From assembly GCA_019090455.1 (NCBI GenBank), contig JAHRWA010000032.1:186001-250000 (forward strand): a stretch of DNA of 64,000 nt. The letters are read 5' to 3'. The notes under the pieces were generated by a model. That model did no database searches and was not told the origin of the DNA. It saw only the letters and a program-made list of their open reading frames with translations. A program made the position numbers and the translations under genes. This DNA is from Pseudomonadales bacterium (lineage in GTDB: Bacteria; Pseudomonadota; Gammaproteobacteria; Pseudomonadales; DC-out160). Of the stretch, positions 4,876-32,832 are shown one piece after another. Positions within the stretch are counted from its first letter, which is position 1, and each line of letters starts with the position of its first letter.

Positions 4876-4905
4876 ATTCTATATCGAAATATTTTGATAT
4901 AGAAT
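4876..4905. promoter_or_regulatory. Perfect inverted repeat, candidate ArsR/SahR-type operator
   Basis: Arms ATTCTATATC (4876-4885) and GATATAGAAT (4896-4905) are exact reverse complements around a 10-bp AT-rich spacer. It lies about 100 bp upstream of the ArsR-methyltransferase regulator and 370 bp upstream of tkt. ArsR-family dimers bind imperfect palindromes of this size and AT content, and SahR-type regulators control their own gene and the neighbouring methionine-cycle genes. The palindrome is seen; its role as operator is inferred. No second copy was noticed directly upstream of metK, ahcY or metF. Confidence 0.6.
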
Positions 4906-5003: not shown

Positions 5004-5993
5004 TTGACATCAATCTCACCTAGCCTGGACACATCTGATCTGAAAGAGATCGCTGATCTTTGCAAAAGCAGTGGTGATCCGCTGCGCTTAGAAGTTTTGC
5101 GAGCACTTAAAACCGACTCCTACAGCGTCCTAGAATTATGTGACATTTTTGACGTCAAACAATCGAGCATGAGTCATCATTTAAAGATATTAGCTAAAGC
5201 CAATGCGGTGGCCACTCGGCGCGAAGGTAATTCCATATTCTATCGACGGGCACTGGCTCATCAAAGTAAGCCTAGCGGCCGCCTTCTACAGGCACTGTTT
5301 CAATCCGTAGACGCCTCAAAGCTGCCCCAAGCTACCAGTGAACGGATAAAAAAAACGAAATCCCAAAGAGCCAACTTATCACGACATTTTTTCGACAAAC
5401 ACGTATCTCAATTCCAAGAACAACAAGAACTCATTGCCCAATATCATCAATATGCTGGCAGCGCTAAAGATCTATTACTTCATATTGAACCCAACGAACA
5501 TTCCACCGCGTTGGAAATAGGACCAGGACAGGGAGAGTTTTTAAAAGAGCTATCCCCACTCTTTAAGCGCGTTATAGCTTTGGATATCTCTGAGAACATG
5601 CTCAATCAAGCTCAAGCTTTTTCCACCAAAGAAAACTTACACAACATCGATTTTATATTAGGCGACACATTAAAGGCCGCCAACGACGGCATCTGCGTGG
5701 ATCACATTGTTTGCAATATGGTATTGCATCATGTGCCCTCTCCCGCCGACGTTTTTCAAGATTGCACCTCTCTTCTTGAAGTGGGAGGCACAATTGTCAT
5801 AACCGATCTCTGTCGCCACGACCAAAGCTGGGCAAAAGACAGCTGTGGCGATTCCTGGTTAGGCTTCGATCCTGAAGAACTAACAGAGTGGGCCAATGAT
5901 GCCGGCCTAGTAGATCAAGAGAGTTTATATTTGGGGCTCAGAAATGGGTTCCAAATACAGGTACGACGGTTTGATAAAGTAGCAAATAGATAA
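5004..5993 (+). CDS. ArsR-family regulator fused to SAM-dependent methyltransferase domain (SahR-like)
   Basis: 329 residues. Residues about 10-90 form an ArsR winged helix (SGDPLRLEVLRAL, then VLELCDIFDVKQSSMSHHLK as recognition region, then wing RREGNSIFYRR). Residues about 150-325 form a class I methyltransferase fold with motif I ALEIGPGQGEFL and acidic DISENML. This architecture next to metK is known in Proteobacteria; SahR is the described regulator of the S-adenosylhomocysteine cycle and senses SAH. Likely role here: DNA-binding repressor of metK/ahcY and itself, with SAM/SAH bound by the C-terminal domain. The start is TTG at 5004; the next in-frame ATG falls inside the helix-turn-helix, so it is too late. 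No strong ribosome site is seen. Whether the methyltransferase domain is catalytic cannot be told. Confidence 0.85.
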   Translation: MTSISPSLDTSDLKEIADLCKSSGDPLRLEVLRALKTDSYSVLELCDIFDVKQSSMSHHLKILAKANAVATRREGNSIFYRRALAHQSKPSGRLLQALFQSVDASKLPQATSERIKKTKSQRANLSRHFFDKHVSQFQEQQELIAQYHQYAGSAKDLLLHIEPNEHSTALEIGPGQGEFLKELSPLFKRVIALDISENMLNQAQAFSTKENLHNIDFILGDTLKAANDGICVDHIVCNMVLHHVPSPADVFQDCTSLLEVGGTIVITDLCRHDQSWAKDSCGDSWLGFDPEELTEWANDAGLVDQESLYLGLRNGFQIQVRRFDKVANR

Positions 5994-6077: not shown

Positions 6078-7238
6078 ATGAGCGAATATTCTTTATTTAC
6101 TTCCGAATCGGTTTCCGAAGGGCATCCCGATAAAATGGCAGATCAGATTTCTGACGCCATACTCGATGCCATTATTGCGGACGACCCCAATTCACGAGTG
6201 GCAGTAGAAACCATGGTAAAAACCGGCATGGTGATCATAGCCGGAGAAGTCCGCACCAACACCTACGTTGATCTAGAGGCTATCGTTCGAGAGGTTGTTC
6301 TTGATATCGGCTATGACAGCAGTGATGTTGGCTTTGATGGCGCTTCCTGCGCGATACTTAACGCTATCGGAAAACAATCTTCTGATATCGCCATGGGCGT
6401 AGACGAAGGTGATAAAAAGGCACTCGGCGCAGGCGACCAAGGATTAATGTTTGGTTACGCTACGAATGAAACAGATGTTCTGATGCCGGCTCCTATCTTT
6501 TATTCCCACCTTCTCGTTGCAAAACAAGCTGAAGTCAGAAAAAACGGAACCCTTGATTGGCTAAGACCCGACGCCAAAAGTCAGGTAACACTACGCTACG
6601 AAAACAACAAACCTGTCGCCGTTGACGCTGTTGTATTATCCACCCAGCATAGCCCTAACATCAGTCATTCTGATCTTTGCGATGCGGTGATGGAACATAT
6701 TATCAAGCCCGTCTTACCCGTTGAGTGGCTACATTCGGATACGCTATTCCACATCAATCCCACCGGCCAATTTATTATTGGTGGCCCCGTAGGCGATTGC
6801 GGTCTCACAGGACGAAAGATTATCGTTGATACTTACGGTGGTATGGCTCGACACGGCGGTGGTGCATTCTCAGGAAAAGACCCGTCCAAAGTTGACCGTT
6901 CAGCTGCCTATGCGGTTCGTTACGTCGCTAAAAACATTGTCGCCGCAGGCCTAGCGGATCGCTGCGAAATTCAGGTCTCCTATGCCATCGGTGTAGCGGA
7001 ACCCACCTCCATTAGCATCGAGACTTTTGGCACAGGTAAAGTATCAGACGCGAAGATTGCCGAAGTCGTTCGTGAGCATTTTGACCTTCGTCCGGGTGGC
7101 CTAATCGATATGTTAGACCTTCGCCGTCCGATTTATCGCGATACTGCGGCATACGGGCATTTTGGTCGAACCGGCTCTAATTTCACTTGGGAACAAACAG
7201 ACAAAGTGGCGGCCATCAAAGCAAGTCTCGGCCTATAA
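6078..7238 (+). CDS. metK: S-adenosylmethionine synthetase
   Basis: Makes S-adenosylmethionine from methionine and ATP with release of PPi and Pi; cytoplasmic tetramer. The 386 residues are the usual length. Signatures seen: N-terminal [18 protein letters not shown], the hexapeptide region [12 protein letters not shown], and the P-loop-like [19 protein letters not shown] at 6078 is preceded by AAAAAGGACC. It lies 84 bp after the regulator and 46 bp before ahcY on the same strand, so all three may be co-transcribed and feed the activated methyl cycle. Confidence 0.98.
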
Positions 7239-7284: not shown

Positions 7285-8649
7285 ATGAGCGATTACAAAG
7301 TAGCAGATATCAGTTTAGCCGAATGGGGCCGACGAGAGATTGAAATAGCAGAAACTGAAATGCCGGCACTCATGGCCCTCAGGAAAAAATATTCTGCCGC
7401 CAAGCCATTAGCCAACGCGAAAATTATGGGCTGCATTCACATGACCATACAGACCGCGGTGTTGATCGAAACATTAGTGGATTTGGGCGCGGAAGTGCGC
7501 TGGTCTTCTTGCAACATCTTCTCAACACAAGATCACGCTGCCGCTGCCATTGCCGCCGCAGGCATTCCCGTCTTTGCATGGAAAGGGGAAACCGAAGATG
7601 AGGCATGGTGGTGCATCGAGCAGACTATTCTTAAAGATGGAGCTGTTTGGGATTCCAATATGATCCTTGATGATGGTGGCGACCTCACTCAAATTCTTCA
7701 TGAAAAATATCCCGAAGCTTTGGATAACATTCACGGAATTTCAGAAGAAACCACCACGGGTGTACATCGCCTATTAGAGATGCTGGAAGAAGGCTCCTTA
7801 AAAGTCCCTGCTATCAACGTTAACGACTCGGTCACCAAATCCAAAAATGACAATAAATACGGCTGCCGTCATAGCTTAAACGATGCCATAAAACGCGGTA
7901 CCGACCATTTATTATCAGGTAAGAAAGCGCTAGTCATAGGCTACGGTGACGTGGGTAAAGGTTCTGCCGCTTCATTGAGCCAAGAAGGTATGATTGTCCG
8001 CGTTACTGAAATCGATCCCATTTGTGCTATGCAAGCCTGCATGGATGGATTTGAAGTGGTATCGCCTTATATCGACGGCGTTAACACAGGCTCTCTAGAC
8101 TGTATCGACACTCGTGTTTTAGGCACCACTGACCTAGTCGTTACTTGTACTGGTAACGTCGATGTCTGTGACAAAAATATGCTTCAGTCCCTCAAAAAAG
8201 GCGCGGTTGTTTGTAACATCGGTCATTTCGACAGTGAAATTGATACCAACTTTATGCGTGAGAGCTGGAAGTGGGTCGAGGTTAAGCCTCAGGTTCATAA
8301 AATTTCTCGATCAGCAGAAGCCACTGATTACTTACTTCTACTATCCGAAGGTCGTTTAGTAAATCTAGGTAATGCGACAGGTCACCCGTCTCGCATCATG
8401 GACGGCTCTTTCGCAAACCAAGTACTGGCTCAAATCCATCTTTGGGATAAGAAGTTTGCTGACTTACCCGCAGGCGAAAAGACCCAAGCACTTTACGTTG
8501 AAGTCTTACCGAAAAAGCTAGACGAAGAAGTGGCCGCTGATATGGTAGCTGGCTTTGCTGGTGTCGTTACCAAAATGACAAAAGAACAATCTGACTACAT
8601 TAAAGTCCCTGTAGACGGTCCGTTCAAACCAGAAAGCTATAAGTACTAA
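7285..8649 (+). CDS. ahcY: Adenosylhomocysteinase (SAH hydrolase)
   Basis: Splits S-adenosylhomocysteine to adenosine and homocysteine, removing product inhibition of methyltransferases. The 454 residues include the NAD-binding [13 protein letters not shown], substrate-site [20 protein letters not shown] and the conserved C-terminal KPESYKY. The extra segment of about 40 residues (around 130-175) present in the Pseudomonas/plant type is there. ATG 7285 follows AAAGGAAA. The last codons plus stop are part of a short direct duplication. The gene is followed by two RNA hairpins and metF. Confidence 0.98.
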
Positions 8650-8667
8650 ATCCGTAAGTACTAAATC
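8641..8667. repeat. 15-bp-period duplication of the ahcY stop-codon region
   Basis: AAGTACTAAATC occurs at 8641-8652 and again exactly at 8656-8667, separated by CGT. The first copy encodes the last two residues (Lys-Tyr) and stop codon of ahcY, so the gene end was duplicated into the 3' UTR. The 12 bp are identical, making this one of the youngest-looking duplications here. Confidence 0.8.
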
Positions 8668-8686
8668 AAAAAACACTAACAATAAT

Positions 8687-8729
8687 GGCGTACTCGTGGC
8701 ACCTTCTTAATAGTCGCCACTGAGTACCC
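8687..8729 (+). other. Stable hairpin in the ahcY-metF intergenic RNA
   Basis: GTACTCGTGGC (8690-8700) pairs with GCCAC (8716-8720) and GAGTAC (8722-8727) with a single bulged T, extended by GG/CC at 8687-8688 and 8728-8729. It is followed 22 bases later by the terminator-like hairpin. No match to the conserved core of the SAH riboswitch was recognised. Possible roles are mRNA 3' protection or part of a metF leader. Confidence 0.5.
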
Positions 8730-8750
8730 AAATAAGCAAATATGACAGAG

Positions 8751-8795
8751 ACCCTCTTTCCTTTATTTATTTAATTAAAGACAGGAGGGTTTTTT
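8751..8795 (+). terminator. Intrinsic terminator directly upstream of metF
   Basis: ACCCTC (8751-8756) pairs with GAGGGT (8785-8790), with inner pairing of CTTTA with TAAAG, followed by TTTTTT. Only about 25 bases separate the T tract from the metF ATG. No separate promoter fits in between, so metF needs read-through or conditional antitermination, or initiation upstream within this region. Confidence 0.8.
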
Positions 8796-8819
8796 ATAGA
8801 CACAAATGGAAACACGATC

Positions 8820-9671
8820 ATGATTGGTCAACAACTTCGATTTAGCTTTGAATTCTTCCCACCAAAAACCGATGCGGGATTAGAAAAATTCAGAGTGGTT
8901 CGCTCACAACTGGCACAGTTGAAACCTGAGTTCTTCTCCGTCACCTACGGCGCAGGCGGTTCTACTCGTGACACAACACTGAGCACCGTATTGGAAACAC
9001 AAAACCACTCCGGCATAGCCACCGCACCACACCTCTCCTCGGTGGGTGATACTCGCGACTCCTTGCGACAACTACTGAATCAATACAAGGACGAAGGCAT
9101 TAATCGCATCGTGGCCCTGCGAGGTGATCTTCCTTCAGGAATGGGCGCAACTGGCGAATTAACCTATGCCAGCGACCTCGTGAAGTTTATTCGAGAAGAG
9201 ACAGGAGACCACTTTCAATTAGAAGTGGCAGCCTATCCAGAGGTTCATCCCCAAGCTGTATCTGCCGATGCCGATCTCAAGGCCTTTAAACTCAAGGTAG
9301 ATGCAGGCGCAAACAGCGCTATCACGCAGTACTTCTTCAATATCGAGGCATATCATTATTTTATGGATATGTGCGACAAGGCAGCCATCGACATCCCTAT
9401 CTATCCTGGGATTATGCCCATTACCAATTTCACGAATTTGGCGCGATTCTCTGATAATTGTGGTGCGGAGATTCCACGATGGATACGCAAAAGACTCGAA
9501 GGCTATGGCGATGATATAGAATCAATCAAACAGTTTGGTGAAGAAGTAATCACGCGATTAGTAGAAACACTGATTGATAATGGCGCTCCTGGTATTCACT
9601 TCTACACAATGAACCAAGCCAAACCCATACTAGCAATTTGGGACAACCTCTCTCTAAACGAGCTAGCGTAA
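8820..9671 (+). CDS. metF: Methylenetetrahydrofolate reductase
   Basis: FAD-dependent reduction of 5,10-methylene-THF to 5-methyl-THF, the methyl donor that regenerates methionine. The 283-residue TIM barrel carries FSFEFFPPKTDAG at the N-terminus, TYGAGGSTRD near residue 40, and ALRGDLPSGMG around residue 100, all family signatures. It starts with ATG 8820. It is immediately downstream of an intrinsic terminator, so its expression may be separately controlled from metK-ahcY, although it belongs to the same cycle. Confidence 0.97.
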   Translation: MIGQQLRFSFEFFPPKTDAGLEKFRVVRSQLAQLKPEFFSVTYGAGGSTRDTTLSTVLETQNHSGIATAPHLSSVGDTRDSLRQLLNQYKDEGINRIVALRGDLPSGMGATGELTYASDLVKFIREETGDHFQLEVAAYPEVHPQAVSADADLKAFKLKVDAGANSAITQYFFNIEAYHYFMDMCDKAAIDIPIYPGIMPITNFTNLARFSDNCGAEIPRWIRKRLEGYGDDIESIKQFGEEVITRLVETLIDNGAPGIHFYTMNQAKPILAIWDNLSLNELA

Positions 9672-9744
9672 GCCATTATCAACTCTTCGAATTAATTTAT
9701 AGTAAAGTCAGCTTCCCCTACTTCTCGTTTACTTTATGTACTTC

Positions 9745-9778
9745 CCAATTCAGCTATACTATAGTATAGCTGAATTGG
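9745..9778. promoter_or_regulatory. 34-bp perfect palindrome
   Basis: Bases 9745-9778 read identically on both strands with no spacer. The left half begins CCAATTCAGC and the centre is CTATACTATAGTATAG. It lies 73 bp after the metF stop and about 70-100 bp before the next start. There is no T tract to make it an intrinsic terminator. It could be an operator for the downstream DUF2505-like gene or a cruciform/RNA hairpin; function unknown. Confidence 0.7.
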
Positions 9779-9808
9779 AGTTCGGCCAATGACAACGCCC
9801 TCCATAAG

Positions 9809-9847
9809 AGCTGAGCCTCAATTTTGAGCCACAATCTTGAGCCACAA
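9809..9847. repeat. 13-bp degenerate tandem repeat (3 copies)
   Basis: GCTGAGCCTCAATT, TTGAGCCACAATC and TTGAGCCACAATG follow one another immediately upstream of and into the first possible ATG of the next gene. The last two units differ by one base. Confidence 0.7.
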
Positions 9848-32539: not shown

Positions 32540-32832
32540 TATCACTAAAACAACAGCCGTAGATTAATAATGGCTATTCTGTTCGCTTCGATTCATACAA
32601 GTTATTGCAAAATCAAACATAAAATAACTTGTATGAATCCACCCTCAGCAGCTTCAACTCTGCACTGCTATCCTATACGACTGTATTAAAAGGAAATATA
32701 ACCTAGCTCTACTCTCTCGCCCAATAACCTTCCGATACCACCATCACATCGAGTCTATAACTCGCACCTTTACACTCTAAAACCTGTCGTCCAAAATACT
32801 AATATAACGATGAATTCGAGCACTGTAGATCC
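32540..32832. other. Intergenic region clpV / response regulator, with a 17-bp inverted repeat
   Basis: 293 bp. The notable element is GATTCATACAAGTTATT (32590-32606) whose exact reverse complement is at 32623-32639, separated by 16 bases. No T tract follows, so it is not a standard terminator. The remaining sequence shows nothing recognisable; promoter of the response regulator presumably lies here. Confidence 0.7.

Follow-up and report, generated by a model that had tools for sequence, protein, structure and literature searches.

A probable leaky terminator between ahcY and metF in a SahR-type methionine-cycle operon of a Pseudomonadales bacterium

In the window analysed here, a stretch of 64,000 nucleotides from a Pseudomonadales bacterium, sahR, metK, ahcY and metF follow one another on the + strand, and the gap before metF holds two hairpins, A and B. 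Because hairpin B, with a good T tract, sits inside the operon, partial intrinsic termination lowering metF is regarded as the likeliest explanation; I put at roughly 0.58 the probability that the four genes form a single SahR-controlled operon in which hairpin B and its T tract act as an internal intrinsic terminator of incomplete efficiency, lowering metF relative to metK and ahcY. A promoter upstream of sahR, controlled by SahR, would drive sahR-metK-ahcY-metF as one unit; most transcripts would end at hairpin B, as sahR-metK-ahcY mRNA capped by a hairpin, and read-through into metF would occur in a fixed proportion of cases, so that metF expression would stay below that of metK and ahcY. 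Hairpin A might protect the 3' end or act as a spacer, and would not be essential.

Gene order and the upstream operator

The operon and its operator comprise the following features.

4879-4902, no strand assigned: SahR-type operator, a palindrome of 24 bp containing ATC-N10-GAT, in front of the ArsR-methyltransferase gene
5004-5993, + strand: probable sahR, with an ArsR HTH N-terminus and a methyltransferase C-terminus (Pfam HTH_20, HTH_5, Methyltransf_11)
6078-7238, + strand: metK (TIGR01034 above cut-off)
7285-8649, + strand: ahcY (TIGR00936 above cut-off), stop codon at 8647-8649
8820-9671, + strand: metF (TIGR00676 above cut-off), ATG at 8820

The ArsR-methyltransferase gene adjoins metK-ahcY-metF in relatives too, the neighbourhood being conserved. 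The operator, CTATATCGAAATATTTTGATATAG, is palindromic at 22 of 24 positions and is the sole match without mismatches in the genome; since a reversed control gives three matches with up to 3 mismatches, other matches to the pattern are at chance level. Of the 17 named relatives, 16 have a counterpart in front of their orthologous gene (palindrome score of at least 16/24, reached by 0.9% of shuffles), the 17th scoring 14, and no SahR operator occurs inside any of 68 ahcY-metF gaps. As presented in the sections of Leyn et al. 2014 (PMC4239095) devoted to it, SahR is a regulator of the ArsR family that responds to SAH and has a palindromic motif of 20 bp, the ATC-10 nt-GAT consensus is common to SahR and SamR in gammaproteobacteria, and the core regulon includes sahR, ahcY, metH, metF and metK. 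The gammaproteobacterial operons described there share with the present one the ArsR-family regulator, the ATC-N10-GAT operator and the metK/ahcY/metF targets, but those sections describe no ahcY-metF hairpin or terminator. With an ArsR-type gene linked to SAM-cycle genes and an ATC-N10-GAT palindrome upstream of it, the window's regulator is predicted to be SahR. Since the operator recurs upstream of sahR in relatives and is absent from the gaps, methionine-cycle control would most simply be placed at the promoter upstream of sahR.

Two hairpins before metF and their fate in a congener

The ahcY-metF gap spans 170 nt (8650-8819) and contains, or borders, the features below.

8685: small ORF of 12 codons, over hairpin A
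8686-8730, + strand: hairpin A, a bulged stem (fold -20.5 kcal/mol, z -5.75)
8742: small ORF of 10 codons, covering the 5' arm of hairpin B
8742-8771, + strand: weak promoter-like pair, ATGACA-18 nt-TTTATT, picked by eye, below the scanner's rule and not favoured
8747-8794, + strand: hairpin B, a predicted intrinsic-terminator stem-loop (fold -18.0 kcal/mol, z -4.79)
8790-8795, + strand: terminator T tract, TTTTTT, read from the sequence and partly paired in the full fold
8803-8822, + strand: ribosome-binding region and ATG of metF, which align with conserved counterparts in the congener

For each hairpin, none of 200 dinucleotide shuffles folds as well, so that the two stable hairpins with a T tract described in the earlier note stand up to folding. 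In hairpin B, an outer stem pairs 8747-8758 with 8783-8794, and an inner stem of 5 bp (8761-8765/8776-8780) closes a loop of 10 nt; a simple terminator scanner missed it, its loop limit being 8 nt. A stable GC-containing stem is directly followed by a T-rich tract, as in intrinsic terminators, and the stem is kept in the congener (see below); the identification as a terminator, already proposed from the sequence, is therefore likely. Taken on its own, this feature of the window is an ordinary intra-operon terminator. Counted from the end of the T tract, the metF ATG is 24 nt away, in agreement with the 25 or so bases given before. The related claim that metF must be reached by read-through holds in the form that it would most easily be so reached, and mainly by that route, from the SahR-type promoter upstream, the operator being located there and hairpin B being terminator-like.

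Among the 24 codirectional gaps of 40-300 nt in the window, the ahcY-metF gap is the second most structured (z -4.6), the first being 32540-32832 (z -5.6, -52.6 kcal/mol). A dispersed repeat of the REP or MITE kind was considered and rejected, a 180-nt query covering the gap matching only itself in its own genome at E <= 0.001, a search that short diverged copies could escape. Downstream of metF, the gap 9672-9846 also folds well (z -4.3) and holds a perfect 34-bp palindrome (9745-9778) that lacks a T tract and may serve as an operator or mark the end of a transcript; the following ORF on the + strand is at 9847. At the other end of the gene, a five-codon ORF, METRS (8806-8823), runs across the metF start in another reading frame; its counterpart in the congener, MEPRS, has the same layout and one residue different, possibly reflecting no more than conservation of the metF ribosome-binding region.

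One genome of the same genus (G001) was compared, in which metK-ahcY-metF is kept on a short contig that stops 42 codons into metF. Its ahcY-metF gap is 149 nt long and has no aligned counterpart of hairpin A; hairpin B is found at the same place, with the stem AAGACCCTCTT/AAGAGGGTCTT, and folds at -20.3 kcal/mol in a stretch of 61 nt (z -4.97), the whole gap reaching only z -1.69. By eye, all 11 pairs of the stem are kept, 3 of these with a one-sided, pair-preserving change with respect to the window and 0 being broken; no two-sided compensatory change was seen in this comparison. The T tract, TCTTTATCT, is weaker than that of the window. As the congener has B without A, the two hairpins do not travel together, and, both small ORFs being missing as well, B is the conserved part; hairpin A would appear to be species-specific. 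Comparative folding, one of the checks suggested beforehand, thus speaks for the stem of hairpin B, which is kept, and not for hairpin A, which is lost.

The ahcY-metF junction across the order

The gene metF was found in 244 of the 293 genomes of the order. From about 150 metF matches listed, 80 longer stretches were hand-chosen, mostly one per genus (10 of them from the same genomes as loci fetched before), which together with the window and the congener make 82 loci. The two genes lie at most 400 nt apart in 75 of these; left out were L162, L164, L166, L168, L171 and L172, which had no ahcY match, and L173, with a gap of 2011 nt. Eight of the 75 gaps are shorter than 40 nt and were excluded from folding, leaving 67, and two of the latter, exceeding 300 nt, were excluded from the z-scores, leaving 65.

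A hairpin folding at -12 kcal/mol or below is present in all 67 ahcY-metF gaps of at least 40 nt (64.6% in shuffles), the median best being -24.3 kcal/mol, as compared to 22 of 43 metK-ahcY gaps (34% in shuffles) and 5 of 25 sahR-metK gaps (16.8% in shuffles). Likewise, the median z is -3.59 for ahcY-metF (58/65 at z <= -2), -1.78 for metK-ahcY (18/41) and 0.02 for sahR-metK (3/25); in the 26 named loci of the order, the 17 ahcY-metF gaps have a median z of -3.42 versus -1.38 for 56 other codirectional gaps. The best hairpin starts at a median of 10 nt past the ahcY stop. Terminators by the loose test occur in 22 of 67 gaps against 24.9% in shuffles, and by the strict test in 8 of 67, the window being one of the eight (shuffles: 13 of 335); downstream of the best hairpin T makes up a fraction of 0.254, close to the gap average of 0.245. 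T tracts are thus not general, which in most relatives rules the hairpin out as a canonical terminator and makes a role in mRNA stability or processing more likely there. From lineage to lineage the hairpins have unrelated sequences, and Marinobacter-type gaps, about 12 nt long, have no hairpin.

Palindromes are contained in the 112-nt ahcY-metF gaps of three loci (L020, L022 and L039), presumably resembling known dispersed gammaproteobacterial repeats and suggesting that the junction accepts palindromic inserts. In a related family, f28, the gaps of L006-L008 and L021 carry a dispersed element, other copies of which were fetched as L202-L231 and which is absent from the window genome. It consists of a shared core, some 55 nt long and with two small hairpins, between near-perfect inverted arms that are copy-specific: 27 of the 30 fetched copies have arms of at least 20 bp in which no more than 3 positions mismatch, the median length being 27 bp, and the inner 20 nt of the left arms show a median identity of 35% between copies. 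The core pattern is found in 6 of 10 f28 genomes, with 1-12 matches each, and has 0 matches in a reversed control, in G000 and in G001; a scan of viral contigs for the core gave 0 matches, and a literature search found no element resembling it.

A hairpin in 67 of 67 gaps, lineage-specific in sequence and usually without a T tract, suggests a device that marks a boundary or sets stoichiometry rather than an aptamer, at least in this hand-picked sample. A tentative extension, to which I would give somewhat poorer than even odds, is that selection in the order maintains a strong hairpin at the junction whatever its sequence, with fresh terminators, palindromes or inserted repeats renewing it lineage by lineage; such a sequence-free boundary would split metK-ahcY (SAM/SAH recycling) from metF (folate-linked remethylation) in mRNA amount.

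The same recurrence bears on an alternative in which the hairpins act mainly after transcription, capping and stabilising the upstream mRNA or marking a processing site, so that the metF RNA decays separately and termination is minor. That all 67 gaps have a hairpin, mostly lacking a T tract and placed close behind the ahcY stop, is what such a role would lead one to expect, and protective RNA structures are stated, in the portion of PMC5927463 concerned with them, to influence the mRNA ratios within E. coli operons; the window version, however, does carry a good T tract and is among the few that pass the strict test, which makes this alternative unlikely here. For the leaky terminator itself count hairpin B with its six T, the stem kept in the congener, the operator upstream, and ahcY-metF gaps that are more structured than metK-ahcY, sahR-metK and other codirectional gaps; against it count the lack of general T tracts in the order, the weaker T tract of the congener and the hairpin-free gaps of the Marinobacter type.

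A separate promoter, a sensing leader and known systems

Alternatively, hairpin B might be a complete terminator of sahR-metK-ahcY, with a metF promoter overlapping it; transcription of metF would then begin in its loop or in its 3' arm, and the metF transcript could not form the stem. The loop is AT-rich and the pair at 8742-8771 is available; such a promoter need not fit wholly in the 24 nt past the T tract, and the earlier argument that this space leaves no room for a separate promoter is accordingly not strict. The one candidate pair, however, has hexamers that are not kept in the congener and was not reported by the scanner; promoter-like matches in the region number 9 versus a shuffle mean of 11.8, and the SahR operator is missing from every gap. 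An own metF promoter is, on balance, quite improbable.

The suggestion that the gap is a sensing leader for a methionine-cycle metabolite fared poorly. At gathering score, Rfam gives 0 matches in the whole window, and down to E 10 the gap gives 5, all to unrelated families below their cut-offs and at chance level; the proposed covariance-model search with the SAH, SAM and SAM-SAH families thus returned no aptamer match. For the SAH riboswitch (Rfam RF01057), none of the thresholds tried gives a match in the window, in line with the remark that its core is not seen; according to the relevant part of PMC4239095, ahcY and metF can be under the control of that riboswitch in betaproteobacteria and in some gammaproteobacteria. 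In nascent RNA ending before the 3' arm of the terminator, the 5' arm pairs upstream with a probability of at most 0.06, and with the 3' arm barred the best fold is 14-15 kcal/mol weaker; no antiterminator is therefore apparent, folding of the gap RNA having revealed no mutually exclusive pairing. A leader-peptide attenuator was rejected, the ORFs at 8685 and 8742 having neither a clear ribosome-binding site nor methionine runs and both being lost in the congener. Nor was the conserved sequence or structure core of a riboswitch or attenuator found, hairpin A being lost in the congener and the order-level gaps being unrelated: a search of the gap sequence in 56 relatives gave 2 matches, the window itself and one of 32 nt near the ahcY end. 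Metabolite sensing by the gap shows no sign in these sequence comparisons, and the literature searched on ahcY/metF operons, terminators and riboswitches gave no report of an ahcY-metF hairpin. A regulated attenuator, in which a metabolite, a protein or the translating ribosome would switch hairpin B for metF, can point to a position before a methionine-cycle gene, to two hairpins and to small ORFs overlapping hairpin A and the 5' arm of the terminator, but with these results against it and the operon already under a SahR-type operator it is very improbable.

Partial termination inside an operon has precedents. According to the part of PMC9045158 dealing with them, internal terminators have been shown experimentally to set transcript ratios in a clostridium, their efficiency depending on U tail and stem. 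The terminators of Ruminiclostridium ABC importers treated there resemble the present one in that a stem-loop with a T-rich tail separates codirectional genes, that the upstream genes are presumably required in larger amounts, that the stem has an unpaired region in its middle and that the tail pairs partly with the 5' side; they differ in phylum and pathway, and termination has been shown there and is predicted from sequence here. The metXZ terminator-antiterminator element, as outlined in the corresponding part of PMC4239095, also concerns a methionine gene and a terminator-like hairpin not conserved in sequence; it differs in having six conserved sequence blocks, none of which was seen in the ahcY-metF gap.

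To sum up, one SahR-type promoter and one leaky internal stop would offer a simpler, testable account in place of the riboswitch suggestion. The recurrence of hairpins across the order, as judged from folding statistics in a hand-picked sample, would be of more interest than the single feature of the window: that almost all relatives whose gap is long enough have structure, but no conserved sequence, at this one junction may provide a clean case for studying how within-operon expression ratios are maintained in bacteria.
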